This document shows, piece after piece, positions 1-25,830 of a DNA stretch of 64,000 bases (positions within the stretch are counted from its first letter, which is position 1; the number at the start of each line of letters is the position of its first letter). This stretch comes from a virus. Position numbers and translations under genes: made by a program. A model generated the notes under the pieces. The model was not told the DNA's origin. It searched no databases and worked only from the letters and a program-made list of their open reading frames with translations. The DNA is taken from positions 1-64,000 of the IMG/VR virus record IMGVR_UViG_3300047546_001437; one strand, 5' to 3'.

Positions 1-121
1 TAGCATTTCCAAAGTCTACGCATTTATTCCATACATCAACCGCCTCTAGCATATCTGCGGTCTTGAAATCAGCATACAATTCTCCGTCATAGGAGATAGT
101 TATAGCATAGTTATATTCCAT
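1..121 (-). CDS. Hypothetical protein, N-terminal part (runs off left edge)
   Basis: Starts at ATG 121 on the minus strand and stays open to the window edge, giving 40 residues beginning MEYNYAITISYDGELYADFK. I do not recognise it. It follows the 48-aa gene by one base and is probably the distal end of the same minus-strand transcript that begins at the promoter near 838. Composition (acidic, no membrane segment) fits a small early phage protein. The continuation to the left is not visible. Confidence 0.7.
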   Translation of the reverse strand, partial: MEYNYAITISYDGELYADFKTADMLEAVDVWNKCVDFGNA

Positions 122-122
122 T

Positions 123-269
123 TTAGTCCTCCAATTCAAATTCAATATAGTTGTCATTTCCGTCATCTTTTAGATTAGTATAGATAATTAGTTGTCCGTC
201 ATTATCTTCTTCAATCTGATATTCAGGAGCAATCTTAGCGAGTGCTGTTCTAAATTTATATCCATTCAT
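123..269 (-). CDS. Small acidic hypothetical protein, 48 aa
   Basis: ATG at 269, stop TAA at 123-125, beginning MNGYKFRTALAKIAPEYQIE and ending in an acidic tail (YIEFELED). The ribosome binding site (AAAGGG) lies inside the last codons of the upstream 98-aa gene, and the next gene starts two bases after its stop, so it sits in a tightly packed operon. The acidic C-terminus is the only striking property. No family recognised; function unknown. It is called real because of spacing, frame and Shine-Dalgarno placement. Confidence 0.65.
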   Translation of the reverse strand: MNGYKFRTALAKIAPEYQIEEDNDGQLIIYTNLKDDGNDNYIEFELED

Positions 270-270
270 T

Positions 271-567
271 TTAGTATTCCCTTTCTATTAGCCATGCCTC
301 TAAGTGGTGAGCCTCAATAATAGCAGAAGCAGGGGCTAAGTCGCTACCTCGCCACGATATACCTTCAGGAAGTTTTATAGGCAAATCCCAAAGTCCTGCG
401 TCATTTACTGCGTCAATAGCCTGAATACAAGGTGCGACCATGAATGAGGGAACGGGAGGATAGTGATTACTAGATAAGTGAATTGCTATCTGCTTTTCAA
501 TAGGAATATGAATACCCATATCCTCTAATACTCCACTTGCCATTTCGTTAGCCATATTACTTCCCAT
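271..567 (-). CDS. Conserved-looking phage hypothetical, 98 aa
   Basis: ATG at 567 is preceded by a GGAGG motif that lies inside the last codons of the upstream zinc-knuckle gene. A second Met (MANEMASG) lies four codons in and could be an alternative start. The protein has a PPVPSF motif, a helix with IQAIDAVNDAG, and a C-terminal His-rich helix (AIIEAHHLEAWLIERE). This composition resembles small conserved proteins of actinobacterial siphophages, but I cannot name a family. Soluble, no signal peptide or membrane segment. Part of the minus-strand early operon starting near 838; probably a takeover accessory protein by position only. Confidence 0.75.
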   Translation of the reverse strand: MGSNMANEMASGVLEDMGIHIPIEKQIAIHLSSNHYPPVPSFMVAPCIQAIDAVNDAGLWDLPIKLPEGISWRGSDLAPASAIIEAHHLEAWLIEREY

Positions 568-569
568 TA

Positions 570-782
570 TTATCGTGCCTCCATTGTTGCGAATAGTTCA
601 GGCTCACTTAGCAAACCATTATCATAGATTACTGAGCCATCTTCATCTAAAATAATTCCGTATATATTACACTCGCAGTCTTCAATATCATAGTCCTCGC
701 CATTAGCAAATCCATGATAACCTCTACCCTGACACAAATCGCAATTAGCAATAGTGCGTAGTGCGTATTCTAATTTATCCAT
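570..782 (-). CDS. Zinc-knuckle protein, DnaJ-type CxxCxGxG, 70 aa
   Basis: Residues 14-38 contain CDLCQGRGY and a paired CEC further on, the arrangement of a small zinc finger like the CxxCxGxG repeat of DnaJ. Such motifs bind one zinc ion and often touch nucleic acid or protein. First gene of the operon: promoter at 810-838 and an AAAGGAAATAAAA leader before ATG 782. A plus-strand gene at 4432-4542 carries the same motif (CDSCSGRG, then DY-I-CEC), so the two are likely paralogues in oppositely directed operons. Function beyond zinc binding is unknown. Confidence 0.78.
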   Translation of the reverse strand: MDKLEYALRTIANCDLCQGRGYHGFANGEDYDIEDCECNIYGIILDEDGSVIYDNGLLSEPELFATMEAR

Positions 783-809
783 TTTTATTTCCTTTCTTTC
801 AATACTGAA

Positions 810-838
810 ATCCTATCATGGGGGACTGACAAAATCAA
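810..838 (-). promoter_or_regulatory. Early promoter for the 570-782 operon
   Basis: On the minus strand: -35 TTGATT (838-833), 17-bp spacer starting TTGTCAGT and ending TGA, -10 TAGGAT (815-810). The extended -10 (TGA) and TGTCAG element recur in the promoters at 1594, 3759 and 3943. GGCGTG lies just upstream of the -35. Reads into the zinc-knuckle gene and those beyond it. Confidence 0.75.
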
Positions 839-852
839 ATCCCCCACGCCCT

Positions 853-1350
853 TTACCACGAAGAAGTGTAGTAAAAGGACAATTTGGACATTTCGGGCAG
901 AGCGAATATTCTGTCCAATTTAGTCTTAGTATTCTTTAGGTCATTCCAATACCATTCGTCAATATCATATGAACCAAAGAAAAATCCTGCTCTAGGTTGA
1001 AGCAGATTAGGGTTGCGTTCTGCCAAAGCCTTATTCACTAGATCAAGTAACTCTTTCAGTTTCTCATGAGATACATAGTATTCACCGCAGTCATCATTAC
1101 CCTGTTGAACATTATCAACAAACCATGCGTGTATCTGATTAGCCTTGCGCCAATAAGCACAAGTTACATCTACATTTACTCCATAGATATCAACTGCGAC
1201 ATCTGACATCTGAGCGGTATTTACAATTTCAGTCCAAAGTGGATTTACCACTTCTGGACTATCCATAGACAATTCATCATTATTCTGAAGTGTCTGCCAA
1301 TTTATTTTTTCCACGTATTTTTTAGCGTGGAGATACATATCTAGTCCCAT
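853..1350 (-). CDS. Conserved phage protein of the MGLDMYL family, 165 aa
   Basis: The start MGLDMYLHAKKYV, the central YWRKANQIHAWFVDNVQ, DDCGEYYVSHEKLKELLDLV and GFFFGSYDIDEWYWNDL are hallmarks of a widespread phage protein family of unknown function found in many unrelated tailed phages. Length (165 aa) is about normal for that family. Start at ATG 1350 has a good AAAGGAAAT leader. It lies 15 nt behind the 65-aa gene, so both probably come from the promoter at 1594-1622. The charged and aromatic conserved residues suggest a soluble enzyme or binding protein, but no catalytic motif can be named. Confidence 0.88.
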   Translation of the reverse strand: MGLDMYLHAKKYVEKINWQTLQNNDELSMDSPEVVNPLWTEIVNTAQMSDVAVDIYGVNVDVTCAYWRKANQIHAWFVDNVQQGNDDCGEYYVSHEKLKELLDLVNKALAERNPNLLQPRAGFFFGSYDIDEWYWNDLKNTKTKLDRIFALPEMSKLSFYYTSSW

Positions 1351-1365
1351 TTATTTATTTCCTTT

Positions 1366-1563
1366 CTATTCTGAAACCTTGACGGCAATAGTAGCCCAAC
1401 GATTACCATTGAAACGAATTGCGTAGGCTTCATAGTTTTCGCCTACCCAAACATCATCACGCTTTTCTGCGTAAGTAATTTCTCCGCCTTGATAACGGCG
1501 AGCAAGTGAGGTTGGTCTATAATACTGACCAACAAGTAAATCAACAATTGAGTAAGTTCTCAT
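1366..1563 (-). CDS. Small early protein, LLVG...YR family, 65 aa (paralogue of 2410-2613)
   Basis: Begins MRTYSIVDLLVGQYYRPTSL and ends AVKVSE. It shares a clear pattern with the product of 2410-2613: YSI-x-(D/E/N)LLVG-x2-YR near the start, (G)EI-x2-AEK in the middle, EAY, and (T/A)-x-AVKV-(S/N)-(E/D) at the end. The two are therefore paralogues, each the first gene behind its own promoter. Probably a small beta-rich domain. ATG 1563 is preceded by AAAGGAAAACTA. Unknown function; its position as promoter-proximal gene in two operons hints at an early role. Confidence 0.75.
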   Translation of the reverse strand: MRTYSIVDLLVGQYYRPTSLARRYQGGEITYAEKRDDVWVGENYEAYAIRFNGNRWATIAVKVSE

Positions 1564-1593
1564 TAGTTTTCCTTTCTTTATTTTCAGGCTTCT

Positions 1594-1622
1594 AGCCTAT
1601 CATTTTCTACTGACATTTTCAA
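1594..1622 (-). promoter_or_regulatory. Early promoter with upstream CGGCGTGTCGA element
   Basis: Minus strand: -35 TTGAAA (1622-1617), 17-bp spacer beginning ATGTCAGT and ending TGA, -10 TAGGCT (1599-1594). The motif CGGCGTGTCGA abuts the -35 (1634-1624). Drives 1366-1563 and 853-1350. Confidence 0.75.
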
Positions 1623-1635
1623 ATCGACACGCCGT

Positions 1636-1765
1636 AATTCTGGAAAAAATTCGGGTGTGTTTATAATCACATCTTAAGCCTGTGGATAAACCTGTGGAAA
1701 ACCCCTCGGGGGGATTTTGTTGAAACTTCAACTAAGTAATTGAAATCTCAACAAAACTTTTTGGA
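1636..1765. other. Candidate replication origin: DnaA box plus inverted repeats
   Basis: A non-coding stretch between two minus-strand operons. TGTGGATAA at 1681-1689 is a perfect reverse complement of the strong DnaA box TTATCCACA, and TGTGGAAAA at 1693-1701 is a near match 12 bp away. They are followed by CCCC-TCGG-GGGG and a 9-bp perfect inverted repeat, TTTTGTTGA (1715-1723) with TCAACAAAA (1748-1756), which itself encloses GTTGAA/TTCAAC. The hairpin may instead terminate the operon ending at 1766. Origin function is inference. Confidence 0.4.
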
Positions 1766-1846
1766 TCAATTTAGAATTAGATAAGCAACACTAAATCCAA
1801 TTCCAATACACATTGTTAGTAAACCAATTGTTTGTAAAACTATCAT
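1766..1846 (-). CDS. 26-aa single-helix membrane peptide
   Basis: ATG 1846 overlaps the stop of the upstream gene as ATGA, the usual translational coupling. The peptide MIVLQTIGLLTMCIGIGFSV continues into AYLILN and is almost entirely hydrophobic, so it should form one transmembrane helix. It is the last gene of an operon of five tightly overlapping genes. Tiny membrane peptides in phages can act in superinfection exclusion, lysis control or envelope remodelling, but nothing here decides among them. Confidence 0.5.
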   Translation of the reverse strand: MIVLQTIGLLTMCIGIGFSVAYLILN

Positions 1847-2034
1847 ACTGGAATAAATCCTAACTCATCAACGCCACACGCTTTTTCAAATTTTGCTTTA
1901 TCAAATCTTTCGTTATCTGCTGCGAAATATTGTGCGAATTCTTCTACTAAATCTTCGAAAACTTGTGGGTGAATTTCTTCACTAAATCCTTTTAGAATAT
2001 TTGAAGTTTTGACATAGTCTTTTCGTGTCATCAT
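1843..2034 (-). CDS. Small acidic helical protein, 63 aa
   Basis: Begins with two Met codons (MMTRKDYVKT); the first overlaps the upstream stop as TAATG, so 2034 is preferred. The sequence is helical and acidic (VFEDLVEEFAQYFAADNERF) with a conserved-looking CGVDELGF near the C-terminus. No signal or membrane segment. Coupled to 2034-2294 upstream and to the 26-aa membrane peptide downstream. Family not recognised. Confidence 0.7.
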   Translation of the reverse strand: MMTRKDYVKTSNILKGFSEEIHPQVFEDLVEEFAQYFAADNERFDKAKFEKACGVDELGFIPV

Positions 2035-2294
2035 TAGTTATTCTCCTCATCTAGTAGAATGAAAGCATGAGTGCCACCATCATTGACACGCTCTAATTCT
2101 GCAAGTAATTCATCACGAGTTAGAAGTGAAGCGTCACCTACTAATTCTGTTACTGCCTGCGTATTCATATCCGCTACAACCTGAGCAGGTAATTTAGCGA
2201 GTGAGCCTGCGAATGGAGAATTAGCGTCAATTCTTGAAATAAACTTTACACCATTAGCGGAAAATTTATAGTCTGTGAAATTAGTTGTAGTCAT
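2034..2294 (-). CDS. Hypothetical early protein, 86 aa
   Basis: Begins MTTTNFTDYKFSANGVKFIS; the C-terminal part, LLTRDELLAELERVNDGGTH followed by AFILLDEENN, looks like an alpha/beta fold. Start and stop overlap neighbouring genes as TAATG on both sides, so translation is probably coupled through the operon that starts at the 2648-2676 promoter. No catalytic motif or family recognised. Confidence 0.72.
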   Translation of the reverse strand: MTTTNFTDYKFSANGVKFISRIDANSPFAGSLAKLPAQVVADMNTQAVTELVGDASLLTRDELLAELERVNDGGTHAFILLDEENN

Positions 2295-2410
2295 TAGTTT
2301 TTACCTTTCGTGTTAGTTGTTGCTACAATTTTAGCGATTTTCTCTAAGTTTGTCAATTGTTGCGCTTTGCGCTGTTGCTCAATTAGAGCCTTGAATTCAT
2401 CTAGTTTCAT
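2294..2410 (-). CDS. 38-aa helical peptide between two coupled genes
   Basis: ATG 2410 overlaps the stop of 2410-2613 (TAATG), and its own stop overlaps the start of 2034-2294 in the same way. The sequence MKLDEFKALIEQQRKAQQLT is strongly helical and rich in Gln/Lys, with a basic end (TKGKN). It could be a small coiled-coil partner or merely a translational coupler. Called because both junctions are of the TAATG type used throughout this operon. Confidence 0.6.
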   Translation of the reverse strand: MKLDEFKALIEQQRKAQQLTNLEKIAKIVATTNTKGKN

Positions 2411-2613
2411 TAGTCATTTACCTTTACTGCTAGAGTGCGGAAAGTATAGCCACCTTTTAGGCTATCACGAACCTCAACGAGATACGCTTCAGCGTTTTCA
2501 TAGTGTAAGCAAGCAGGGTGTTTTTCTGCTGATACGATTTCACCTGTAAGGGTGCGAGAGCGATAAATTTTTCCTACAAGTAGGTTTTCAATTGAGTAGA
2601 TATTTGCTGACAT
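2410..2613 (-). CDS. Small early protein, LLVG...YR family, 67 aa (paralogue of 1366-1563)
   Basis: Begins MSANIYSIENLLVGKIYRSR and ends LAVKVND. It matches the 65-aa product of 1366-1563 across its length (YSI, LLVG, YR, GEI, AEK, EAY, AVKV). First gene of a five-gene coupled operon. Preceded by GAAAGGTGACAACTC before ATG 2613 and by the promoter at 2648-2676. Residues ACLHY and the basic stretch are unique to this copy. Likely a small beta-barrel-like domain; function unknown. Confidence 0.75.
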   Translation of the reverse strand: MSANIYSIENLLVGKIYRSRTLTGEIVSAEKHPACLHYENAEAYLVEVRDSLKGGYTFRTLAVKVND

Positions 2614-2647
2614 GAGTTGTCACCTTTCTTTAGTTTCTAATAATTAT

Positions 2648-2676
2648 ATTATTTCATATTTAGTTGTAAAAGTCAA
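2648..2676 (-). promoter_or_regulatory. Early promoter with upstream palindrome
   Basis: Minus strand: -35 TTGACT (2676-2671), 17-bp spacer ending TGA, -10 AATAAT (2653-2648). Directly upstream lies a perfect palindrome TTCGACA-CGC-TGTCGAA (2677-2693), a symmetric version of the CGACACGCCG motif seen near other promoters here, so probably an operator. Drives the 2613-to-1766 operon. Confidence 0.72.
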
Positions 2677-2694
2677 TTCGACACGCTGTCGAAA

Positions 2695-2859
2695 TTAGTG
2701 AGTTGCCTCACATTTTTCATTCGAACATTTGTTCGGAAGTGTAAAGAGATACTTCAAGAGAGCCTTACGCTCAGACATTGAAATTTCTGGGTGGTAATTC
2801 TGAACACCACCATGTTGATATTCATACACGATTTTATCTAAAGTTTTTTGAGTAAGCAT
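2695..2859 (-). CDS. Small protein with C-terminal Cys pair, 54 aa
   Basis: ATG 2859 has a strong GAAAGGAGCAGAA leader and lies 32 bp from the -10 at 2892-2897. The sequence begins MLTQKTLDKIVYEYQHGGVQ, has a helix SERKALLKYLFTLP, and ends with CSNEKCEATH, a possible half zinc site. A palindrome resembling an SOS box (2721-2736) lies inside the 3' coding part, about 45 bp upstream of the next promoter. Family not recognised. Confidence 0.68.
   Translation of the reverse strand: MLTQKTLDKIVYEYQHGGVQNYHPEISMSERKALLKYLFTLPNKCSNEKCEATH
2721..2736. promoter_or_regulatory. SOS-box-like palindrome TCGAAC-ATTT-GTTCGG
   Basis: Matches 11 of the 12 fixed positions of the mycobacterial LexA box TCGAAC-N4-GTTCGA. 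It lies about 45 bp upstream of the promoter at 2648-2676, within the preceding gene. A second near-identical copy is at 3845-3860. Binding by host LexA or a phage repressor is inference. Confidence 0.45.
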
Positions 2860-2891
2860 TTCTGCTCCTTTCTTATTTTCTAACTATCGTT

Positions 2892-2920
2892 AGTCTAACA
2901 TATAAATCTCAAAAAGTCAA
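2892..2920 (-). promoter_or_regulatory. Early promoter for 2695-2859
   Basis: Minus strand: -35 TTGACT (2920-2915), 17-bp spacer ending TGT, -10 TAGACT (2897-2892). GGCGTGTCGAA lies just upstream of the -35 (2931-2921), the same arrangement as at 1594-1634. Confidence 0.73.
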
Positions 2921-2934
2921 TTCGACACGCCGTA

Positions 2935-3008
2935 CAAATCGGACATTTTACAAAATATTTTTGTGGGGTTCGTCACACCCTGCTTAAAAGGTGCAAATCG
3001 GACATTTT
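2935..3008. repeat. Two copies of CAAATCGGACATTTT upstream of an early promoter
   Basis: CAAATCGGACATTTT occurs at 2935-2949 and again at 2994-3008; a third copy differing only at its first base (TAAATCGGACATTTT) is in the divergent control region at about 3791-3806. The intergenic placement in all three suggests a protein binding site rather than chance, but the binder is unknown. Confidence 0.5.
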
Positions 3009-3017
3009 GCTCGGGCA

Positions 3018-3055
3018 TTTTTTGCTAACTTTTTCAATTAGCAAAAAACTTTTTT
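3018..3055. terminator. Hairpin with T-tract below 3058-3207
   Basis: TTTTTTGCTAA (3018-3028) pairs perfectly with TTAGCAAAAAA (3038-3048) around a 9-nt loop; CTTTTTT follows on the plus strand. It lies right after the stop of the minus-strand gene, but the clearest T-tract is in the plus direction, so it may act on both strands. Confidence 0.5.
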
Positions 3056-3057
3056 AT

Positions 3058-3207
3058 TTATTCAACAACATCTAAAACTTCAAATGCATCAAATTTTACA
3101 ACATCAGATTCAGGAAGTTTATACATTACTTTATTCAAAGCAAAGATAGCATCAAGATCTGTTTCAGCATCAGTTACAAAACTGATTAGAATATTTTTCT
3201 TACTCAA
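3058..3207 (-). CDS. 49-aa hypothetical protein with TTG start
   Basis: No ATG is available at the front. TTG 3207 lies 9 nt behind GGAG and overlaps the stop of the upstream gene (the string TTTGAGTAA encodes both). The product begins (M)SKKNILISFVTDAETDLDAI and ends in an acidic DVVE. The strand-like start followed by DAETDLDAI looks like a small alpha/beta domain. The start choice is an inference from spacing. Followed by the hairpin at 3018-3055, so this is the end of the transcript. Confidence 0.6.
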   Translation of the reverse strand: MSKKNILISFVTDAETDLDAIFALNKVMYKLPESDVVKFDAFEVLDVVE

Positions 3208-3406
3208 AGTAAATCGCTCCTTTCGCATCTTTATGATTTACACAAACATTACCACGCTCTATACCTTTATGGCAAACAAAGCATAGCATTTGAAATTGCT
3301 TAGTCATTAGACCAAGTTCAATGTTCATTTGTTCATCTTTAGTAGCAGTTGAGAAATCTACCCAACCAGCACCATTTTCATCTATTCTAAAAATTTCTAT
3401 TGACAT
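3200..3406 (-). CDS. Small zinc-finger-like protein, 68 aa
   Basis: Residues 42-57 read CFVCHKGIERGNVCVNH, a CxxC pair followed by CxxH, the ligand set of a single zinc finger. The N-terminal half (MSIEIFRIDENGAGWVDFS) is a strand-rich segment. ATG 3406 follows AAAGGATAACTAA. The upstream gap holds a 24-bp tandem repeat. Zinc binding is predicted from the motif; the target is unknown. Confidence 0.7.
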   Translation of the reverse strand: MSIEIFRIDENGAGWVDFSTATKDEQMNIELGLMTKQFQMLCFVCHKGIERGNVCVNHKDAKGAIYFE

Positions 3407-3450
3407 TTAGTTATCCTTTCTAAGATACTTTCGTTTTGTTTTGCTGACCT

Positions 3451-3504
3451 GATTATTTGCTATCATAGGCTCACCTTTCGGATTATTTGCTATGATAGGC
3501 TCAC
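3451..3504. repeat. Two 24-bp direct repeats, 30-bp period
   Basis: GATTATTTGCTAT-(C/G)-ATAGGCTCAC occurs at 3451-3474 and 3481-3504 with a single C/G difference. Each copy contains a small palindrome (CTATCATAG or CTATGATAG). It lies in the 116-bp gap between two minus-strand genes. Three-turn spacing (30 bp) suits cooperative binding of a regulator; alternatively it affects RNA processing. Confidence 0.6.
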
Positions 3505-3522
3505 AGGATTTTTATTTAGTTT

Positions 3523-3720
3523 TTAGTATGGTAGAACATCTGTTCCGTAGTTTAGAACTGCGTCATACAGACTAGACATACCTTTGTAGTCTTTACAGCG
3601 AGGGCAAAAACTATTCCAACCATCTGTTAGAACTGAGCAGAATACGCAAATTTTATCTGTTACGCAGAAATCATTTTCTACTAAGTATTCAATTATTTCG
3701 TTTTTATTTAGTGTAGTCAT
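3523..3720 (-). CDS. Zinc-ribbon protein, 65 aa
   Basis: Two CxxC pairs, CVFC and CPRC, with a Trp/Phe-rich linker between them form a classic zinc ribbon in the middle of the protein. The N-terminus (MTTLNKNEIIEYLVENDFCV) looks like a short helix. ATG 3720 follows GAAAGGTAGGTCAAAAA. First gene after the promoter at 3759-3787. Zinc ribbons of this size often bind nucleic acid or RNA polymerase; no specific function can be assigned. Confidence 0.72.
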   Translation of the reverse strand: MTTLNKNEIIEYLVENDFCVTDKICVFCSVLTDGWNSFCPRCKDYKGMSSLYDAVLNYGTDVLPY

Positions 3721-3758
3721 TTTTTGACCTACCTTTCTTTTTTCTATCTAATACGAGT

Positions 3759-3787
3759 ATTCTAGCAGGGGGGTCTGACATTTTCAG
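3759..3787 (-). promoter_or_regulatory. Early promoter, minus arm of divergent control region
   Basis: Minus strand: -35 CTGAAA (3787-3782), 17-bp spacer beginning ATGTCAGA and ending TGC, -10 TAGAAT (3764-3759). Same TGTCAG element and extended -10 as the other early promoters. Reads into 3523-3720. Confidence 0.72.
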
Positions 3788-3942
3788 GGGTATAAATCGG
3801 ACATTTTGGACTTTGTGACGTAGAACACATGTGACGTAGCACACACGAACATCTGTTCGAATGCTCGGGGGCTCTCAGGAAACACTCAGGAATAGTGTGA
3901 TAGAAACCACAAAAATATTATTGCGACACGCCGAAAATGGAC
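3788..3942. promoter_or_regulatory. Divergent control region with SOS-like palindrome and repeats
   Basis: Lies between a leftward (3759-3787) and a rightward (3943-3971) promoter. It contains TAAATCGGACATTTT; two direct copies of GTGACGTAG-(A/C)-ACACA (about 3816-3846); the palindrome ACGAAC-ATCT-GTTCGA (3845-3860, 11 of 12 positions of the actinobacterial LexA box); a CTCAGGAA direct repeat; and CGACACGCCG (3924-3933). This density of repeats suggests the main early switch. The regulators are not identified. Confidence 0.5.
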
Positions 3943-3971
3943 TTGATTTTGTCAGTTATCTATGTTATTAT
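3943..3971 (+). promoter_or_regulatory. Rightward early promoter
   Basis: -35 TTGATT (3943-3948), 17-bp spacer starting TTGTCAGT and ending TGT, -10 TATTAT (3966-3971). The first 8 spacer bases equal those of the minus promoter at 810-838. Drives 4001-4830. Confidence 0.75.
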
Positions 3972-4000
3972 TCTCCTATAAATAAAGAAAGGAGTCAGAA

Positions 4001-4153
4001 ATGACTAACTACATAGGAAAACTTACAGACCATGATTTATACATGGCTAACAAAATCGCAGAGCGCACAGGCTCTACCTCAGCAAAAGTGCTGAAAGATT
4101 TCAACGATTTCCTCGCTCAGGTTTATGAGCGTGAGGAAGAAGATTGTGACTAA
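4001..4153 (+). CDS. Small acidic helical protein, 50 aa
   Basis: ATG 4001 follows a strong AAAGAAAGGAGTCAGAA leader, 29 nt after the -10 box. The product begins MTNYIGKLTDHDLYMANKIA and ends EREEEDCD, helical and acidic. First gene of the rightward early island. The helical stretch with SAKVLKDFNDFLAQV could be a dimerisation or ribbon-helix-type segment, but no family is recognised. Confidence 0.68.
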   Translation: MTNYIGKLTDHDLYMANKIAERTGSTSAKVLKDFNDFLAQVYEREEEDCD

Positions 4154-4181
4154 CCTCACACAAAAGGGGTAGCCCACTAGC

Positions 4182-4210
4182 CCCAAAATGTCAGTGGCAG
4201 GGTATAGGAT
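4182..4210 (+). promoter_or_regulatory. Probable promoter overlapping an unused upstream ATG
   Basis: CCCAAA at 4182-4187, then a 17-bp spacer starting ATGTCAGT, then TAGGAT (4205-4210). It copies the ATGTCAGT...TAGG-T pattern of the 1594 promoter, though it has GTA instead of TGN and a weak -35. The in-frame ATG at 4188 falls inside this pattern, which argues that the true start of the next gene is 4242. Confidence 0.5.
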
Positions 4211-4241
4211 AAGATTACTAAAAAGAAAGGTAGCAAAAGAA

Positions 4242-4430
4242 ATGCTAACACTAAATTACACAATAGAAAAAGACGGAATTACACTTTCCGAAACAAATAA
4301 ACTTATGCTCTCAGAGAGTCAAATAAATGACCTCATGGATAGCCTAGTAGCACATGGCTACATAGTAGAGTCTATGTCAGTAGAGTCTGCTACTATTACA
4401 CCTACAATTCACTACTCAGAAAGGAACTAA
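4242..4430 (+). CDS. Hypothetical protein, 62 aa
   Basis: The reading frame is open from ATG 4188, but that ATG is part of a promoter-like element, and ATG 4242 follows AAAGAAAGGTAGCAAAAGAA, so 4242 is chosen. The product begins MLTLNYTIEKDGITLSETNK and contains a helix (SESQINDLMDSLVAHGYIV) and a final strand rich in Thr/Ile. It looks like a small alpha/beta domain. No family recognised. Followed after one base by the zinc-knuckle gene at 4432. Confidence 0.62.
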   Translation: MLTLNYTIEKDGITLSETNKLMLSESQINDLMDSLVAHGYIVESMSVESATITPTIHYSERN

Positions 4431-4431
4431 G

Positions 4432-4542
4432 ATGATAAACTCAGTTCAGACAATAGATTGCGACTCATGCTCAGGCAGAGGACACATCTTCTATGGTGAT
4501 AACGAAGATTATCACATTGAGCCATGCGAGTGTGTGTTATGA
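4432..4542 (+). CDS. Mini zinc-knuckle protein, 36 aa (paralogue of 570-782)
   Basis: The whole product is little more than one zinc site: CDSCSGRGH near residue 10, then DNEDYHIEPCECVL at the end. The order CD-x-CSGRG ... DY-I-x2-CEC matches the 70-aa minus-strand protein at 570-782. ATG 4432 lies just behind AGAAAGGAACTAAG. The next gene starts inside its last codons (ATGA). A stand-alone CxxCxGxG module of this size is unusual; function unknown. Confidence 0.65.
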   Translation: MINSVQTIDCDSCSGRGHIFYGDNEDYHIEPCECVL

Positions 4543-4664
4543 CATACTCACATGAGCAACAACTAAGATTGGCATGGATAACTAAATACGGAAGCCCAGC
4601 AGGGTATCACAAAGCAACACAACAAGAGAAAGAAGAAATACTAAATGAAACTAACAATAACTAG
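4539..4664 (+). CDS. 41-aa hypothetical protein
   Basis: ATG 4539 overlaps the upstream stop as ATGA. The product begins MTYSHEQQLRLAWITKYGSP and ends NETNNN; it is helical, basic to neutral, with no cysteine. The C-terminal 20 nt overlap the start of the next gene. Supported mainly by coupling and by absence of another frame here. Confidence 0.5.
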   Translation: MTYSHEQQLRLAWITKYGSPAGYHKATQQEKEEILNETNNN

Positions 4665-4830
4665 CATGGCAGGAAATACTTTTGAGATGAACCTACCTAC
4701 AAAAGAAAATGTCTATTATTTTATTGACATGTATAAAAAATCACTCAAGAAAAATCAACGAGTAAAAATTACTTGTGATGTATTATCTATTGACGGATAC
4801 ATTCAAGGCACTGCCCCTATCAGAAATTAA
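4645..4830 (+). CDS. Hypothetical protein, 61 aa
   Basis: ATG 4645 follows AGAGAAAGAAGAAATACTAA, a purine-rich leader inside the previous gene. The product begins MKLTITSMAGNTFEMNLPTK and has a Lys-rich middle (DMYKKSLKKNQRVKITCDV). It could be a small beta-rich, basic binding protein. It is the last gene of the rightward island and is followed at once by a long perfect inverted repeat (4846-4895). Confidence 0.65.
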   Translation: MKLTITSMAGNTFEMNLPTKENVYYFIDMYKKSLKKNQRVKITCDVLSIDGYIQGTAPIRN

Positions 4831-4845
4831 ATAGGCAGTAGTGCT

Positions 4846-4895
4846 AAACAATTAGCAACGATCAAAAGTGCTCACTATATTTTTGCTAATTGTTT
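4846..4895. terminator. 13-bp perfect inverted repeat after the 4001-4830 island
   Basis: AAACAATTAGCAA (4846-4858) and TTGCTAATTGTTT (4883-4895) pair fully around a 24-nt loop, followed by TCTAAAT. It likely stops or stabilises the upstream mRNA. The core GCTAA/TTAGC is shared with the hairpin at 3018-3048. Confidence 0.6.
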
Positions 4896-4972
4896 TCTAA
4901 ATCCTGTATCATACATTTCTAAAAAATATTCAGATTTTTATAAAAGTGATTTTTAAAAATTTTTTCAGATTT

Positions 4973-4981
4973 TGATATAAT
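4973..4981 (+). promoter_or_regulatory. Extended -10 for a leaderless 48-aa gene
   Basis: TGA followed by TATAAT (4976-4981); the ATG of the next gene is only 6 nt further, leaving no room for a Shine-Dalgarno site. The upstream DNA is very A/T-rich with no clear -35. Confidence 0.6.
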
Positions 4982-4987
4982 AGATCT

Positions 4988-5134
4988 ATGACCGAAAATC
5001 GACGGGATATAGAATCTGAGTCCACACCAATGCCTAATACAGATAATGCTGGTAGGGAAAAGACTTGGGTAGAAATAGGATCTGAATCAAGATGCTATTG
5101 TAGTGGATGTGCTTGCAGCACAACTAATCCTTGA
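4988..5134 (+). CDS. Cys-rich-tailed 48-aa peptide, probably leaderless
   Basis: ATG 4988 lies 6 nt after a TATAAT box. The product begins MTENRRDIESESTPMPNTDN and ends RCYCSGCACSTTNP. An acidic, Ser/Pro-rich front of about 34 residues is followed by a compact cluster of four cysteines (C-x-C-x2-C-x-C). The overall shape, acidic leader then a Cys/Ser/Thr core, resembles ribosomally made, modified peptide precursors or a metal-binding tail, but no modifying enzyme is adjacent. Its 3' end overlaps the minus-strand HTH gene by 11 nt. Expression and function are inference. Confidence 0.5.
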   Translation: MTENRRDIESESTPMPNTDNAGREKTWVEIGSESRCYCSGCACSTTNP

Positions 5135-5276
5135 AAATGCCATAAATTTCAAGATAGAATTCGACTTCATAAGCATTGTTAGCCTCATCGCACATTTCTG
5201 CGATCTCTTGAGTTGTCTTATTTAAAACAACATACTGCTCTCTGAGCCAATCAGCATCTTTATATTTCGCTGACAC
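5124..5276 (-). CDS. Helix-turn-helix-like small protein, 50 aa, GTG start
   Basis: Starts at GTG 5276, overlapping the 3' end of the HIT gene in another frame. The product begins (M)SAKYKDADWLREQYVVLNKT and continues TQEIAEMCDEANNAYEVEFY. The YxDxxWLREQYV...K(S/T)TxEIAEMC pattern is that of the short HTH domains often found next to homing endonucleases and in phage regulators. The second helix departs from the usual CGVSxxTV turn, so DNA binding is uncertain. Its stop overlaps the convergent Cys-rich peptide gene. Confidence 0.6.
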   Translation of the reverse strand: MSAKYKDADWLREQYVVLNKTTQEIAEMCDEANNAYEVEFYLEIYGIFKD

Positions 5277-5799
5277 GATAAAAGTACCTCTTCTCTAAAA
5301 GTGCCTTAACACTTTCCTCATCTATTTTACCATCACAATTCATATGGAAATGAACATGGGGTATAGGTGGTTTGGTAGATTTTAAAGAAATACTAAGACT
5401 TGTCTCTGCCAAACCAGAAACTCTCATAATAGCCCAACCAGCCTTAATAATATAATCCAAAACCATATAGTCCTCATTTGTCTCAAATGTCTCTATATGT
5501 CGGACGGGAGATAAAAGAATATGCGTATTCTTAGTTGGCCTAGCAGCATAAGCAACCTCTATATACTCATCTACATATAGTTGAAGGTTTGGCTGATCTG
5601 CCACTAACTCTTTTATGTTGTTTGGTATATCTTCTTCTAACCTAGCATATTGAATTTCGCCAAGTAGTCTAGTATATTCTTCCTTGTTGTCCTGATATTT
5701 TCGTATTATTTTATTACCATAAGTACGTCTTATATCAGTTGGACAAAACATACATGACCCATCGATATAGCCATATCTTTTGGCTATAGGAGGTATCAT
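5260..5799 (-). CDS. HIT-family (histidine triad) nucleotide hydrolase/transferase
   Basis: The triad is seen as HVHFH (residues 148-152), preceded by the strand NTHILLSPVRHIETF (91-105) and an N-terminal CMFC (16-19); both are typical of HIT proteins. These cleave or transfer nucleoside phosphates using the middle His as nucleophile. Total 179 aa, a little longer than the common 110-150 aa forms because of a helical insert (residues 30-75). ATG 5799 follows GGCTATAGGAGGTATC-type spacing inside its own front, with no signal peptide. It lies between a 57-aa gene and the HTH gene. In a phage it may act on dinucleotide alarmones or nucleotide salvage; this is inference. Confidence 0.8.
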   Translation of the reverse strand: MIPPIAKRYGYIDGSCMFCPTDIRRTYGNKIIRKYQDNKEEYTRLLGEIQYARLEEDIPNNIKELVADQPNLQLYVDEYIEVAYAARPTKNTHILLSPVRHIETFETNEDYMVLDYIIKAGWAIMRVSGLAETSLSISLKSTKPPIPHVHFHMNCDGKIDEESVKALLEKRYFYRVSEI

Positions 5800-5808
5800 G
5801 AGATTATA

Positions 5809-5982
5809 TTAAAATCCCAAACGGTCAGCGATTTGTCCAGCAACAGCAACTAATCCAGGTCTATTCTGAATAAGTGCTTCCTTCTTCTGCTCGTCTGTCA
5901 TATCCTTTGGAAGGGTTGCTGAAATTCCTTCTTCAACGGTATCGACAACTGCTGCTACGATCTTTTCTCTTGTAAGTTCCAT
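5809..5982 (-). CDS. 57-aa helical hypothetical protein
   Basis: ATG 5982 lies 5 nt beyond the stop of the zinc-site gene. The product begins MELTREKIVAAVVDTVEEGI and ends GQIADRLGF; it is amphipathic and helical throughout with a DEQKKEALIQNRPG turn. No cysteine, no membrane segment. It is located between the 66-aa zinc protein and the HIT gene in the same direction, so all are probably co-transcribed from the promoter at 6364-6392. Not recognised. Confidence 0.68.
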   Translation of the reverse strand: MELTREKIVAAVVDTVEEGISATLPKDMTDEQKKEALIQNRPGLVAVAGQIADRLGF

Positions 5983-5986
5983 TTTT

Positions 5987-6187
5987 TCACCATTTTCCTA
6001 TCGGACATTTTGCTTGCTTTAGAGTTGTCTTAAGTTTCATAAAACAACCACACTTTTTACATTTTATCATACGCTTGTTGAACCATTCACAAGTATTACA
6101 AATACTCAAACGTGACTCTATGAGATCTCTATCGCTTCTTGGCTGATTTGGATCAAACAGGTCTATAAATTTAACATCATCAGCCAT
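5987..6187 (-). CDS. Zinc-site protein, CKKCGCFMKLKT family, 66 aa
   Basis: The C-terminal half has CNTCEWF, then CKKCGCFMKLKTTL and finally CPIGKW, giving five or more cysteines able to hold a zinc ion. This C-terminal module is widespread in phage genomes as a small protein of unknown function. A second copy occurs at 13863-14099 with a different N-terminus. ATG 6187 overlaps the 28-aa membrane peptide upstream. The TCCGAT...ATTTT repeat-like string near its stop is just its codons. Confidence 0.78.
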   Translation of the reverse strand: MADDVKFIDLFDPNQPRSDRDLIESRLSICNTCEWFNKRMIKCKKCGCFMKLKTTLKQAKCPIGKW

Positions 6188-6266
6188 TAAATGTTTTTTT
6201 GATCAATGTCAAAATACCATATGAGATCAGTCCAGCCAAAGCCATACCGATTAATGCCTCAATCAT
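6180..6266 (-). CDS. 28-aa single-helix membrane peptide
   Basis: The product begins MIEALIGMALAGLISYGILT and ends LIKKTFNG: one hydrophobic helix followed by a short basic tail, which suggests N-out/C-in insertion. Its last codons overlap the start of the zinc-site gene by 8 nt. Placed with a second tiny hydrophobic peptide (6284-6355) opposite the holin-like gene, it could be a holin modulator, but that is only a guess from position. Confidence 0.5.
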   Translation of the reverse strand: MIEALIGMALAGLISYGILTLIKKTFNG

Positions 6267-6283
6267 GATTTAACCACCATTTC

Positions 6284-6355
6284 TTAATATACCAAAATGT
6301 TAGGTTTGCAGCAATTATTGCTACATACACTTCTAAAATATTTATAATACTCATA
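6284..6355 (-). CDS. 23-aa hydrophobic leaderless peptide
   Basis: ATG 6355 is 8 nt from the -10 box TAGTAT (6369-6364, minus strand), the same spacing as the leaderless late genes. The product begins MSIINILEVYVAIIAANLNI and ends LVY; nearly all hydrophobic. Without the promoter geometry it would not be called. It opens the minus-strand cluster 6355-to-5124 and lies divergent from the holin-like gene at 6509. Confidence 0.4.
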   Translation of the reverse strand, partial: YEYYKYFRSVCSNNCCKPNILVY

Positions 6356-6363
6356 AGGTATCC

Positions 6364-6392
6364 ATACTACCATAATTTTCCATATAGTGCAA
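6364..6392 (-). promoter_or_regulatory. Minus promoter for 6355-to-5124 cluster
   Basis: -35 TTGCAC (6392-6387), 17-bp spacer ending TGG, -10 TAGTAT (6369-6364); first ATG 8 nt downstream. Confidence 0.65.
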
Positions 6393-6490
6393 ATCTTGTT
6401 TGCATATGTTATGGATAGGGGTGGTTTGGATATACGAAACTCTTATTTCGCCCCGCCGAAAGACGAGAGTTTACATTTTTTAAAAACACT

Positions 6491-6499
6491 TGTTATAAT
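6491..6499 (+). promoter_or_regulatory. Extended -10 for the holin-like gene
   Basis: TGT plus TATAAT (6494-6499), 9 nt before ATG 6509. A TTTACA about 18 bp upstream can serve as -35. Together with 6364-6392 it makes a divergent promoter pair. Confidence 0.65.
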
Positions 6500-6508
6500 T
6501 ATCGAGTT

Positions 6509-6808
6509 ATGTTTTCTGGAAACAATACTGCGCTAGTTATCGAAATTATTATCGGAGTATCAACGATTCTCGTCGGAATCGGTGGCGCAATTAGATGGCT
6601 TACAAAACATTATTTCGATGAAATCAAATCGGAATTTAAACCTAACGGCGGATCGAGTTTAAAAGATCAAGTTAATAGACTAGAAAGAAATCAGGCTGCT
6701 TTGCAAGAAAGAATTGATAAAGCCGAAGAAACTCGTAGAGAGATGAATGAAAAACTTGATCAGATGTATTTAATTTTACTTAAGCATATTGAAAAAACTA
6801 GCAAATAA
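6509..6808 (+). CDS. Holin-like protein: one membrane helix plus coiled coil, 99 aa
   Basis: A strongly hydrophobic segment (about residues 8-30, LVIEIIIGVSTILVGIGGAI) is followed by a charged coiled coil (LKDQVNRLERNQAALQERID and on to the end). One N-terminal helix with a long cytoplasmic coiled coil is the layout of small holin or DUF2746-like membrane proteins found next to tail or lysis genes in actinobacterial phages. No Shine-Dalgarno; leaderless promoter 9 nt upstream. The lytic transglycosylase at 14989-15549 is its likely functional partner. Holin function is inferred from topology only. Confidence 0.55.
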   Translation: MFSGNNTALVIEIIIGVSTILVGIGGAIRWLTKHYFDEIKSEFKPNGGSSLKDQVNRLERNQAALQERIDKAEETRREMNEKLDQMYLILLKHIEKTSK

Positions 6809-6814
6809 TTCCCT

Positions 6815-6888
6815 ATATATAATATATAATATATATAATATATTTATATATAATATATATACTATATATAATATAAATAAAATTATAC
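6815..6888. repeat. Alternating TA-rich tract
   Basis: About 70 bp of almost pure TATATAATATATA. It is self-complementary and easily melted. Could slip, extrude cruciforms or act as a weak terminator behind the holin-like gene. No gene. Confidence 0.6.
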
Positions 6889-6990
6889 ACTAAACTTTCT
6901 ATTCTTGAGGCCTTTTTAACCAATTTTCTTTGTGATCTTAGTCTCTTTTTCTTGAGGAATGTCCGTTTTATACCTATATGATATACTTTT

Positions 6991-7050
6991 AATAAGCCAA
7001 TACTTGAGGTTGTTCCTTATACCCACCACTTTAAGTATTGGTCTTATTTT
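6991..7050 (+). terminator. Strong bulged hairpin before the fibre module
   Basis: AATAAG-CCAATACTT (6991-7005) pairs with AAGTATTGG-T-CTTATT (7033-7048) with one bulged T, then TTTTAT. It would stop transcripts from the holin-like gene just before the next promoter (7052-7060). Confidence 0.65.
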
Positions 7051-7051
7051 A

Positions 7052-7060
7052 TGGTATAAT
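7052..7060 (+). promoter_or_regulatory. Late leaderless promoter TGGTATAAT
   Basis: TGG + TATAAT (7055-7060), 8 nt before ATG 7069. This exact nine-base box recurs before several late genes. No -35 is evident. Confidence 0.7.
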
Positions 7061-7068
7061 CATTGATT

Positions 7069-7452
7069 ATGGCACAATGCGGACCCGAAATCTTTGGAGC
7101 AGATCCAGTCAATATTAAATGGAATATTGTTAGAGGCGACACATCTCCGTTGCGTGTAGAATTTTACGAAAACGACGAAACAACATATTTTGATACAACT
7201 GGTTGGACATACGCTTCAACAACCTACGATGCAAAAGGCGACATTCTAGATGAACTAGAGGTTGATGCAGGAGATGGTTATGTAGAGATTATGGCATCTC
7301 CAGATATCACACAAAATTGGGGAAATGGCTATTCTTCAGTAGTATCAGAATTATTATTTGATCTTCAAGTAACCATTGACGGAGAAACTGTATGGACTCC
7401 CGTGATTGGTACCATAACAGTGCTTGGAGACGTCACAGGAGGTAGTTTGTAA
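7069..7452 (+). CDS. Tail-fibre/baseplate beta-domain protein (RGDT family, copy 1)
   Basis: 127 aa from ATG 7069; the frame is open six bases further (TTG 7063), but the promoter spacing favours 7069. The motif [14 protein letters not shown] near the front, and [20 protein letters not shown] leading into a DVT end, match two other proteins here (9053-9478 and 16213-16617). This looks like the small Ig-like/BppU-type N-terminal domain seen in receptor-binding proteins of siphophages. Coupled by TAATG to the collagen-like gene downstream, suggesting that the two form one fibre unit. Structural role is likely, exact place in the virion unknown. Confidence 0.65.
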
Positions 7453-8309
7453 TGCCAGTCATAAAGATAGTACCCTTCCCTGGTGTACCTGGCGCAAAAG
7501 GCGACACAGGGGCTACAGGAGCACAAGGACCAATTGGGCCAACTGGATTAACTGGGCCGATGGGACCACAAGGAGAGCCAGGGCCACAAGGTGAGCAAGG
7601 CCCACAGGGTGAACAGGGTTTACCAGGCGTTAATGGTGCAGACGCACTTTGGAATTTTGTTGGTGAATATAATAATGCAGCAGATTATAATATTGGCGAT
7701 GTTGTAACTTATGCTGGTGGAACATATTATAGGGTTCTTCCTTTAAATGCTGGATATCCACCAGGAACTGAATATTGGACAACTATTTCTGCACCTGGAT
7801 CACAAGGGCCTCAAGGCGAACCTGGTCCACAAGGAGAGCCAGGGGGATTAACTGGAGCAAAATTAGGTTCATTTTTTGATAATACAATTCAAACAGGTGG
7901 ATCAATTAAGCCTATAACTTTAAACTCTACAGATTTTTCAAACGGAGTAACCATTGTAGATGGATCAAGAATTACAATGGATACTTTGGGTATTTATAAT
8001 ATTGCATTTAGTTTGCAATTAGAAAAAACTGGAGGATCTTCAGCAGATATTTATATTTGGATGAGACACAACGATGTAGATGTTCCAGATACTGCAACAA
8101 TTATTCATATGGCCAACAATAATACTTATAATGTTGCTGCATGGAACTTCTTTGTAAACTGTGATGTTCTTCCTCAAGATTTTCAATTGATGTGGTATAC
8201 AGCAAGTACAAATGTATCTATTTCTGCCATTGCTGACGCTAGTACTCCAGTTGGAGTTCCATCAATTCCGTCGGTAATTGTTACAGTAAATAAAGTCGGA
8301 GATTTGTAA
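7452..8309 (+). CDS. Collagen-like tail fibre with C-terminal jelly-roll-like domain
   Basis: Residues about 10-60 are Gly-X-Y triplets (for example [20 protein letters not shown]), followed by a carbohydrate-binding-like segment ([20 protein letters not shown], the chitin-binding/ChtBD3-like pattern), a second short collagen run near residue 115, and a C-terminal domain of about 150 residues with many beta strands, typical of trimeric C1q/TNF-like heads. The arrangement predicts a trimeric, rod-like fibre with a host-binding knob. ATG overlaps the preceding stop (TAATG). Proline in the Y position is present, so hydroxylation by the phage 2OG oxygenase (25168) is conceivable but untested. Confidence 0.85.
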
Positions 8310-19659: not shown

Positions 19660-21777
19660 ATGGCAACAAGAATGCAACAGCGCAGAGGAACTGCAGCACA
19701 ATGGACTGCAGCAAATCCAATTTTAGCAGCAGGAGAAATCGGATATGAAACCGACACTGGTAAATTTAAAATTGGTGACGGTACTAACACTTGGTCTCTC
19801 CTCAAGTACTTCCTTAACTTAGAAGCATTAGACATAGATGCAGAGGGCTTTATTACAGATGATCAAAAAGGCGTTAATAACGGTGTAGCAACACTAGACT
19901 CAAATGGTCTTGTTCCAGTTATACAGATGCCAGATCAATATATTACAGATAAAATTATTACAAAAATTGGAGAGGTTGTAGGGGCTGCCCCATCAACACT
20001 AAATACCCTTAATGAAATTGCAGCAGCATTTGACAACGATCCAAACTATGCAGATACAATTTCTGCAGCATTAGATTTAAAGGCACCAAAGGCAAGCCCA
20101 GCAATTACTGGAACAGCAACATTTGTAAATGCAACATTTAGTGGAGATGTAGATGTTCAAACTATGCCATTAAATGATAGTTCAACAAGACCTGCTACAA
20201 CTGCATATGTTTCAGGAAGAATTCAAAATGTTAATACAGTTATATCAACATTAGCATCAGAAATAGACGCAAGTCTTGAAACGCTTGGAGCAAACGATGC
20301 ATCACAGGCAAGTTCTTTAGAAGCGCTTGATGTTCGTTTAGATTCAGCAGAGGCATCAATTACTGGAAATACAGCATCAATTGCAACAATTAATACAACT
20401 CTATCTGACCATACATCAGATATATCAGCATTAGATGTAAGAGTTGACGCAACTGAGTCTGATATTTCTACAATTAATGCAGATATCACATCTATTGAAT
20501 CAAATATTGATACAGTAGAAGCAAATATAACAGGAATTCAAAGCGATGTAACAACATTGCAAAATGATTTAAATGCTGCAGAAACAGATATCTCAGCATT
20601 GCAATCAGGAGCAACAACTACAACATCAACTATTTCAACAATACAAAATAATCTTACATCAATGAGTACTGAAATAGATGGAATTGATACAAGATTAACA
20701 GCAGCCGAAACTGATATTGATGCACTACAAACAAGTGCTACATCAGCAAGTGGACATGCTTCTGCAACAACAAATGTTCATGGAATTGCAAATACAGCAG
20801 ATCTTGCAACAAAGTCTTATGCAGATAATGCTAAGACTGAGGCAATTTCTACTTCAGCAACAGCAATTGCCTTAAAGGCAGATATTGCTTCTCCAACATT
20901 TACTGGAACAGTAGTTCTTCCAGCAACAACATCTATCGGAACAGTATCTGCAACAGAGATCGGATATGTTGATGGTGTAACATCAGCAATTCAAACTCAG
21001 TTAGATGCAAAGGCTCCTTTGGCATCACCAGCATTAACTGGTACACCAACTGCTCCTACCGCTACTGCTGGTACCAATACTACTCAGGTAGCAACTACAG
21101 CATTCGTTAAGACTGCCGTTGATAATGTAGTAGCAGCAGCACCTGGTGCACTAGATACTCTTAATGAGTTAGCAGCAGCACTTGGTAATGATGCAAACTT
21201 CTCAACAACATTAACAAACAATTTAGCAGCAAAGGCACCACTTGCTTCTCCAACATTTACTGGAACAGTAACATTGCCTTCATCTACAAGTATTGGAAAT
21301 GTTAGTTCAACAGAAATTGGCTATATTGATGGTGTAACGTCATCAATCCAGACACAATTAGATGCAAAAGCACCTTCTGCAAGTCCAACACTTACAGGAA
21401 CAGTTGCTCTTCCAGCAGCATCTTCTGTAACTTTAAATGGTACAGCACTCTCAACAACATTGGCTCTTAAGGCAGATAATGCAGCAACAATTAACACTAT
21501 GAGTGGTTCACACACAATTGTTTCTGCAGATGTTAGCAACGTACGTGAAATGAGCAATGGAGGAACAATTACAATTCCTTCAGACAACTCTTTCTGGCCA
21601 GTAGGAGCAACCATGGATGTTATTCAAACTGGTTCTTCACAAGTAACAATCGGAGCAGGATCTGGAGTAACATTAAATGCTACACCAGGACTTAAACTTC
21701 GTGCACAATGGTCTTCTGCAACAATTCTTAAGAGAGCAGCAAATACATTCGTTGCTCTTGGCGACTTGTCAGCATAA
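19660..21777 (+). CDS. Mtd-like tail fibre with repeated shaft, 705 aa
   Basis: The N-terminus MQQRRGTAAQWTAANPILAA then GEIGYETDTGKFKIGDGTNT is the Mtd_N-type domain found at the front of many phage receptor-binding proteins (the first domain of the Bordetella major tropism determinant). The shaft holds coiled coil (TTLQNDLNAAETDISALQSG) and repeated APLASPALTGTPTAPTATAG-like segments (three or more copies of the ASPTFTGTV motif). The end is a beta domain (LKLRAQWSSATILKRAANTF). No variable repeat or reverse transcriptase was seen, so no evidence for diversity generation. Confidence 0.82.
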   Translation: MATRMQQRRGTAAQWTAANPILAAGEIGYETDTGKFKIGDGTNTWSLLKYFLNLEALDIDAEGFITDDQKGVNNGVATLDSNGLVPVIQMPDQYITDKIITKIGEVVGAAPSTLNTLNEIAAAFDNDPNYADTISAALDLKAPKASPAITGTATFVNATFSGDVDVQTMPLNDSSTRPATTAYVSGRIQNVNTVISTLASEIDASLETLGANDASQASSLEALDVRLDSAEASITGNTASIATINTTLSDHTSDISALDVRVDATESDISTINADITSIESNIDTVEANITGIQSDVTTLQNDLNAAETDISALQSGATTTTSTISTIQNNLTSMSTEIDGIDTRLTAAETDIDALQTSATSASGHASATTNVHGIANTADLATKSYADNAKTEAISTSATAIALKADIASPTFTGTVVLPATTSIGTVSATEIGYVDGVTSAIQTQLDAKAPLASPALTGTPTAPTATAGTNTTQVATTAFVKTAVDNVVAAAPGALDTLNELAAALGNDANFSTTLTNNLAAKAPLASPTFTGTVTLPSSTSIGNVSSTEIGYIDGVTSSIQTQLDAKAPSASPTLTGTVALPAASSVTLNGTALSTTLALKADNAATINTMSGSHTIVSADVSNVREMSNGGTITIPSDNSFWPVGATMDVIQTGSSQVTIGAGSGVTLNATPGLKLRAQWSSATILKRAANTFVALGDLSA

Positions 21778-21816
21778 AACAGTAGTATAATTTAAAAAAT
21801 AAGGAGATTGATCTAG

Positions 21817-25167: not shown

Positions 25168-25830
25168 ATGGAAAAACATTACGAATATGGTGATGCTAAT
25201 CAACCAAGTAATAGCAAGTCTACTAAAGAGCATAAATTCTTCGATAGAAATATAGAGATTAATAATCTTGAACAACTTGAGAAATTATTAATTACTCAAT
25301 ATGAAAGAATTAATCGTGGAGAGATTATTAAGGGGAACAAAAATGAGCATACCCCTTGGGATCAATCTGGTAGTGCAACTACAATAAATTGGAATAAGTA
25401 TAATGTCTTTCAATTCTATGATGAGAATATCTATACTCTTTTCAGAGCGGTAAGAGACATGACAGTTGATGCTTGTCAGCATTATGAATTAGATTTTATA
25501 AAAGAACAATTTTATGTTCAGGGATGGTTCAATGTTAACTATAACCATATTGGAAAGTTAGATTGGCATGAACATGGTGGAGAAGGTGCACCACATTTCC
25601 ATGGCTATTATTGTGTAAAGGCAGAGCCATCTAAAACTCATTATAGAGTTTTTGAAAAAGAAATTGAAGTAAATAATAAAAATAACCGTGCCATTCTTTC
25701 AGAAACTGGCCATCCTCACGCAATGGGTGACTGGGATTGGGATGGACCAAGAATCACAATAGCATATGACGTAATTCCACTAAGATTTATACCAAAAGAG
25801 TGGGAACAACACTGGATACCACTAATCTAA
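25168..25830 (+). CDS. Putative 2-oxoglutarate/Fe(II)-dependent oxygenase, 220 aa
   Basis: The core has GWFNVNYNHIGKLDWHEHGG (metal ligands among H134 and H136), APHFHGYYCVKAEPSKTHYR, then GHPHAMGDWDWDGPRITIAY (distal His 182/184 and the Arg that holds 2-oxoglutarate). This order fits the small phage 2OG-Fe(II) oxygenase family (PF13759-like) that hydroxylates proteins, nucleobases or small molecules. Length (220) is normal. ATG 25168 follows AGGATAAATA. The target is unknown; virion collagen-like fibres or DNA are candidates. It lies next to a ferredoxin and unknown 'WW' proteins. Confidence 0.75.
   Translation: MEKHYEYGDANQPSNSKSTKEHKFFDRNIEINNLEQLEKLLITQYERINRGEIIKGNKNEHTPWDQSGSATTINWNKYNVFQFYDENIYTLFRAVRDMTVDACQHYELDFIKEQFYVQGWFNVNYNHIGKLDWHEHGGEGAPHFHGYYCVKAEPSKTHYRVFEKEIEVNNKNNRAILSETGHPHAMGDWDWDGPRITIAYDVIPLRFIPKEWEQHWIPLI

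Follow-up and report, generated by a model that had tools for sequence, protein, structure and literature searches.

PafBC-type promoters at the start of the phage record

In mycobacteria, PafBC is the chief regulator of the response to DNA damage. The DNA-damage (RecA-NDp) promoters of actinobacteria follow the consensus tTGTCRgtg-8nt-TAnnnT (PMC5656591). PafBC reads the motif at -26 via PafB and touches domain 4 of sigma-A via PafC; it is switched on by single-stranded DNA (ssDNA) in its WYL domains, and it joins RNA polymerase (RNAP)-sigma-A that already sits on the promoter and does not bind the holoenzyme by itself (PMC11804915). Judged by the titles and abstracts of the literature on PafBC or sigma adaptation together with phage, we found no paper on phage promoters of the PafBC type, and PafBC promoters are described in the literature searched solely in bacteria. 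The promoter class is known; a viral array of it is new as far as this literature shows.

The window, that is, the whole stretch of 64,000 nucleotides that was analysed, comprises positions 1 to 64,000 of the IMG/VR virus record IMGVR_UViG_3300047546_001437 (G000). The initial annotation had described seven promoters of one architecture between positions 810 and 4210, with exactly 17 bp between the -35 and the -10, TGN before the -10 in six of them, and TGTCAG just after the -35 in five. We recovered all seven 29-bp strings at these positions and on the strands assigned to them; TGN does precede the -10 in six of the seven, and TGTCAG near the -35 has its first letter at spacer position 2 in the five sites at 810, 1594, 3759, 3943 and 4182. 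The common architecture holds for these five sites, but not for those at 2648 and 2892, which are without TGTCAG, and a further site on the plus strand (4375-4396) had been missed. The predicted promoters in the window are as follows.

810-838, minus strand: PafBC-type promoter; TGTCAG 831-826, TGA and TAGGAT 815-810, optional -35 TTGATT; before ORF 782-570
1594-1622, minus strand: PafBC-type promoter; TGTCAG 1615-1610, TGA and TAGGCT 1599-1594, -35 TTGAAA; before ORF 1563-1366
2648-2676, minus strand: ordinary sigma-A-like promoter, TTGACT-17-AATAAT; before ORF 2613-2410; no TGTCRG, not a member of the family
2892-2920, minus strand: ordinary sigma-A-like promoter, TTGACT-17-TAGACT; before ORF 2859-2695; no TGTCRG, not a member of the family
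3759-3787, minus strand: PafBC-type promoter; TGTCAG 3780-3775, TGC and TAGAAT 3764-3759, weak -35 CTGAAA; before ORF 3720-3523
3943-3971, plus strand: PafBC-type promoter; TGTCAG 3950-3955, TGT and TATTAT 3966-3971, -35 TTGATT; before ORF 4001-4153
4182-4210, plus strand: PafBC-type promoter; TGTCAG 4189-4194, TAGGAT 4205-4210, no -35 (CCCAAA in its place); before ORF 4242-4430
4375-4396, plus strand: PafBC-type promoter within the end of the upstream ORF; TGTCAG 4375-4380, TGC and TACTAT 4391-4396; before a ribosome-binding site (RBS) and the 36-codon ORF 4432-4542
21767-21788, plus strand: possible PafBC-type promoter, TTGTCAG-N10-TAGTAT; before ORF 21817-22944; a chance match remains possible

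The 17-bp spacer stressed in the initial annotation is partly a product of how the sites were picked. The true invariant is the distance of 16 bp from the first T of TGTCAG to the first T of the -10 hexamer, while the -35 shifts or is absent. Of the five TGTCAG sites first described, three have a good putative -35 (TTGATT, TTGAAA and TTGATT), the one at 3759 has a weak one (CTGAAA) and the one at 4182 has none (CCCAAA), and the -35 therefore had to be given up as a common feature.

The published consensus is matched letter for letter, including the R, which is A or G and is followed by G, the 16-bp register and the dispensable -35. Like the RecA-NDp/P1 promoters of the PafBC regulon in mycobacteria and other Actinobacteria, the phage sites have TGTCRG at -26, 16 bp to TAnnnT, a weak or absent -35 and an optional extended -10; unlike them, they lie on a virus, many per genome, in front of small genes of unknown function with leaders and GAAAGGA-type RBSs. 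The assignment of the phage sites to the RecA-NDp/PafBC type of promoter element is strongly supported by this agreement in sequence. The proposal that the motif in the spacer is contacted by a specific sigma factor or activator fits well with a -26 element read by PafB, although the motif turns out to be a known host motif and not a new phage element. One of the sites, TGTCAGTGGCAGG at 4189, agrees in every letter with a site that precedes recA in several high-GC Actinomycetes. In the large-genome Actinomycetes sampled, TTGTCAGTGGCAGGCGTTAGCGT is found upstream of recA, and it has 13 consecutive bases in common with the phage site at 4189, TGTCAGTGGCAGGGTATAGGAT.

In positions 1-5000 of the window, TGTCRG-N10-TAnnnT occurs six times, whereas 1000 dinucleotide shuffles of these 5 kb gave 0.09 on average and 3 at most. 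The whole record of 72,666 bp contains eight matches, namely, these six, the one at 21767 (plus strand) and one at 25474 inside an ORF; beyond the early region, the count in this whole-record scan is at chance level. A generic sigma-70 scan of positions 1-8000 did no better than chance (38 found versus 31.5 +/- 5.4 expected), and therefore it is the -26 element that carries the signal. Early expression of the genes behind the array is plausible from their position and size. The product of ORF 21817-22944 contains long GFGHY/GFYHG repeats followed by a C-terminal part that, judged by eye, is Hint/intein-like.

Conservation in uncultured viral relatives

Using the 165-aa gene at 853-1350 (minus strand) as the query, we collected 80 viral contigs, 48 of which are nearer to the phage (L004-L051). 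Each of these 48 loci harbors 3-17 sites, and the distance from TGTCRG to TAnnnT is 16 bp in 359 cases, 15 bp in two and 17 bp in none. When the core was varied by one letter at the spacing of 16 bp, TGTCAG (282) and TGTCGG (77) were followed by variants with at most 33 occurrences each, most of them near background (e.g., TGTCTG 14, TGTCAA 3 and TGTCCG 1). Among the remaining 32 viral loci, which form a natural negative control, a handful have the motif array and most have none. Furthermore, all 37 whole viral records are enriched in the motif over the reversed pattern, with 5-20 copies each.

The logo of 155 non-redundant sites reads (A/T)TGTC(A/G)G-T-(G/C)-(G/C)-n-n-n-n-T-G-n-TA(G/T)(A/G)AT. 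An RBS and a start codon follow within 78 nt in 130 of these sites (84%). TTGA (three or four of its four letters) is present at -7, in the 17-bp register, in 34% of the sites and at -8, in the 18-bp register, in 16%, and is absent from the rest. Loss of TGTCAG in relatives, which the initial annotation had named as the outcome that would speak against its motif, was looked for and not seen: at the orthologous site adjoining the 165-aa gene, TGTCRG-16-TAnnnT is intact in all 29 loci counted. At this same site, considered over 46 loci, TGTCRG and the -10 persist, but the bases upstream vary between TTGATT, TTGACA in another register and nothing. The site at 810-838 has an orthologous site kept in relatives, and the promoter at 1594-1622 is also present in L004, L009, L021, L085 and others. 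The gene behind the ordinary promoter at 2648 has an ortholog in L021, L039 and L047 with a PafBC-type promoter instead: at a single gene, the two promoter types are exchanged for one another.

An ordinary sigma-A extended -10 promoter with a free spacer does not agree with the invariant TGTCRG, and TGN precedes the -10 in only 101 of the 155 sites. A palindromic operator (TGA-N5-TCA around the -35) suits four of the sites in the window but fails across the family, because the bases upstream of TGTCRG vary. TGTCRG might instead be the operator of a phage or host repressor acting on ordinary sigma-A promoters, in immunity or silencing, as some sites have a good -35 and an extended -10 and could work without an activator. 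We consider such an operator very unlikely, since many sites are without any -35 (for instance, those at 4182 and 4375), which fits activation and not repression, since operators are not usually held in one helical register with the -10 (two sites at 15 bp and none at 17), and since 282 of the 390 TGTCAG words in the 48 nearer loci already stand in the promoter register, with few elsewhere.

The motif is not enriched in the 11 cultured relatives examined, which are phages of Streptomyces, Rhodococcus, Microbacterium, Gordonia and Tsukamurella; they have 0-1 matches, a count that the control pattern also gives. This result rules out the motif as a general trait of the Stanwilliamsviridae; the trait therefore belongs to the uncultured clade, and perhaps to others too. 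As these nearest cultured relatives live in PafBC-bearing hosts and are without the motif, phages of this group do not generally require it. A stricter pattern was found in at least 120 viral stretches of IMG/VR, most of them with several further sites; 44 of these stretches have no homologue of the proteins of this phage, though the stretches are short.

The putative host and the proposed use of its PafBC

The terminase of the phage is 54% identical to that of Stanwilliamsviridae of Streptomyces, 42% to that of a Rhodococcus phage and 30% to that of a Microbacterium phage, most others being below about 30%, and the major capsid protein (MCP) shows the same pattern (about 42-43% to Stanwilliamsviridae). 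The gene order is that of Streptomyces phage Yaboi (RNR, portal, protease, MCP, tape measure, DnaE, UvsX and terminase). WhiB exceeds the cut-off in 15 of 36 relatives, and among 14 control genomes the WhiB family was found only in Corynebacterium. Taken together, these affinities, the gene order and WhiB make an actinobacterial host very probable. The record encodes a B12-type RNR, a RecA-like protein and a DnaE-like polymerase fragment. Related viral records are often 101-119 kb long and Yaboi is 131 kb, and hence the record, at 72,666 bp, is probably an incomplete genome. A search for the host by matching genome contigs led to one contig, L085, of 65% identity and from a lake MAG with the label Phycisphaerae. 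It was rejected as a host; it is probably a mis-binned viral contig, and it carries two of the promoters.

Tandem PafB-PafC genes, i.e., two adjacent WYL genes, are present in all 15 small (1.2-1.5 Mb) genomes of the class Actinomycetes that were analysed. The encoded proteins match the solved PafB/PafC chains at E-values of 1e-24 to 1e-36 and keep the RMFER recognition-helix arginines, loss of which abolishes PafBC function. The strict motif occurs in 14 of the 15 genomes, being rare in the two of lowest GC content (none in G127 and one in G157), and lies upstream of recA in at least seven of the 15, with a LexA box directly after it in those inspected. The presence of PafBC in the phage's own host is thus predicted from class-level relatives. 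In two of three small genomes inspected, the WYL pair adjoins a tatC-like gene. In small actinobacterial genomes (loci L195, L214, L221, L223, L200, L196 and L203), the strict motif also precedes genes that by eye encode DNA methyltransferases, a phospholipase-D-like protein and membrane proteases, possibly damage-induced defence genes; some of these genes are apparently transcribed without a leader, the ATG lying about 6 nt behind the -10.

No WYL protein is encoded in the 37 phage records; a phage-encoded WYL factor was rejected on this ground, and the activator would therefore be the host's. Another activator or a sigma factor of the phage might read TGTCRG, the likeness to the host promoters being due to convergence or mimicry of PafBC: phages commonly have transcription factors of their own, most early ORFs are without a family match, and the Planktophila phage isolates, whose sequences are available from ENA as PRJEB57446, have a sigma-70 factor of their own (PMC10202952). 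We regard this as improbable, as an unrelated protein would hardly reproduce both the degeneracy at R and the 16-bp register.

With a probability of about 0.78, we favour the reading that an actinophage acquired or evolved PafBC-dependent promoters of the RecA-NDp type, at which PafBC of the host redirects sigma-A RNAP. We infer binding by and dependence on PafBC, as well as early timing, for the phage promoters, and an ssDNA trigger from the biochemistry of PafBC. On binding ssDNA, the heterodimeric WYL-domain activator of the host would become active; PafB would contact TGTCRG at -26 and PafC domain 4 of sigma-A, and the housekeeping polymerase would be loaded on the often extended -10 with no need for a -35. 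Processing of the incoming linear genome, phage replication or breakdown of host DNA could supply the ssDNA that turns the array on, and the few sites with a real -35 may have basal activity. Such an arrangement suggests that this lake-type phage and its uncultured relatives borrow the alarm system of the host to time their genes. With rather less assurance, we lean towards the broader view that a large uncultured, probably freshwater clade of actinophages relies on host PafBC for part of its gene programme, with the ssDNA of infection as the timing signal, and that a single damage-sensing activator is contested between host and virus.

In a further explanation, the array chiefly titrates active PafBC away from the damage-response and restriction-modification genes of the host and its promoter role is secondary. 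The 5-20 motif copies per viral record would suit a sink, as would the same motif before DNA methyltransferase genes in small actinobacterial genomes. We give titration as the chief role hardly any weight, since an RBS and a start lie at promoter distance after 84% of the sites, and since PafBC joins RNAP-sigma-A already on the promoter and not the holoenzyme alone (PMC11804915); it may be a side effect of the array.

The PafBC-driven array proposed here resembles phage genes under host SOS control, such as those with LexA boxes in temperate phages, in that the virus reads the DNA-damage state of the host via a host regulator, but it differs in that activation by PafBC is proposed rather than derepression from LexA. 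No integrase or repressor was seen in the phage, and therefore this is not obviously prophage induction. With phage sigma appropriation and with sigma adaptation in the style of AfsR and PafBC, the array has in common that the host sigma-A holoenzyme is redirected to promoters without a normal -35; unlike in sigma appropriation, the part of the adaptor seems to fall to PafBC from the host and not to a phage protein. If the viral PafBC array is true, phages exploit the WYL pathway that senses ssDNA. The array would also supply dozens of natural PafBC promoters, and it would be a sequence signature for spotting uncultured phages of small-genome Actinobacteria, for which host links are few because the order 'Ca. 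Nanopelagicales' is without CRISPR spacers (PMC10202952).

LexA boxes and other repeated elements

Two perfect actinobacterial LexA-type boxes lie in the window.

2722-2735: LexA-type box CGAACATTTGTTCG, inside ORF 2859-2695
3846-3859: actinobacterial LexA-type box CGAACATCTGTTCG, in the divergent intergenic region

The latter agrees with the box next to PafBC-type promoters ahead of a gene of 91-93 aa in two small actinobacterial genomes. CGAAC-N4-GTTCG occurs twice in this phage versus not at all in 477 kb of its relatives, and LexA/SOS control of the whole promoter set was rejected on this account.

A second element, CGACACGCC / GGCGTGTCG, is present at positions 1625, 2679, 2923 and 3924 of the window and in L004-L051, and is perhaps the operator of a second regulator. 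At 2677-2693 it makes the inverted repeat TTCGACA-N3-TGTCGAA. In the 48 loci, CGACACGC was counted 164 times, whereas permuted words average 4.4; it often lies, in either orientation, 10-29 nt upstream of TGTCRG. Another repeat, AAATCGGACATTTT, is found at 2936, 2995 and 3794 of the window and in relatives, often 20-50 nt upstream of PafBC-type promoters; ATCGGACATT occurs 49 times in the relatives versus 0.7 expected.
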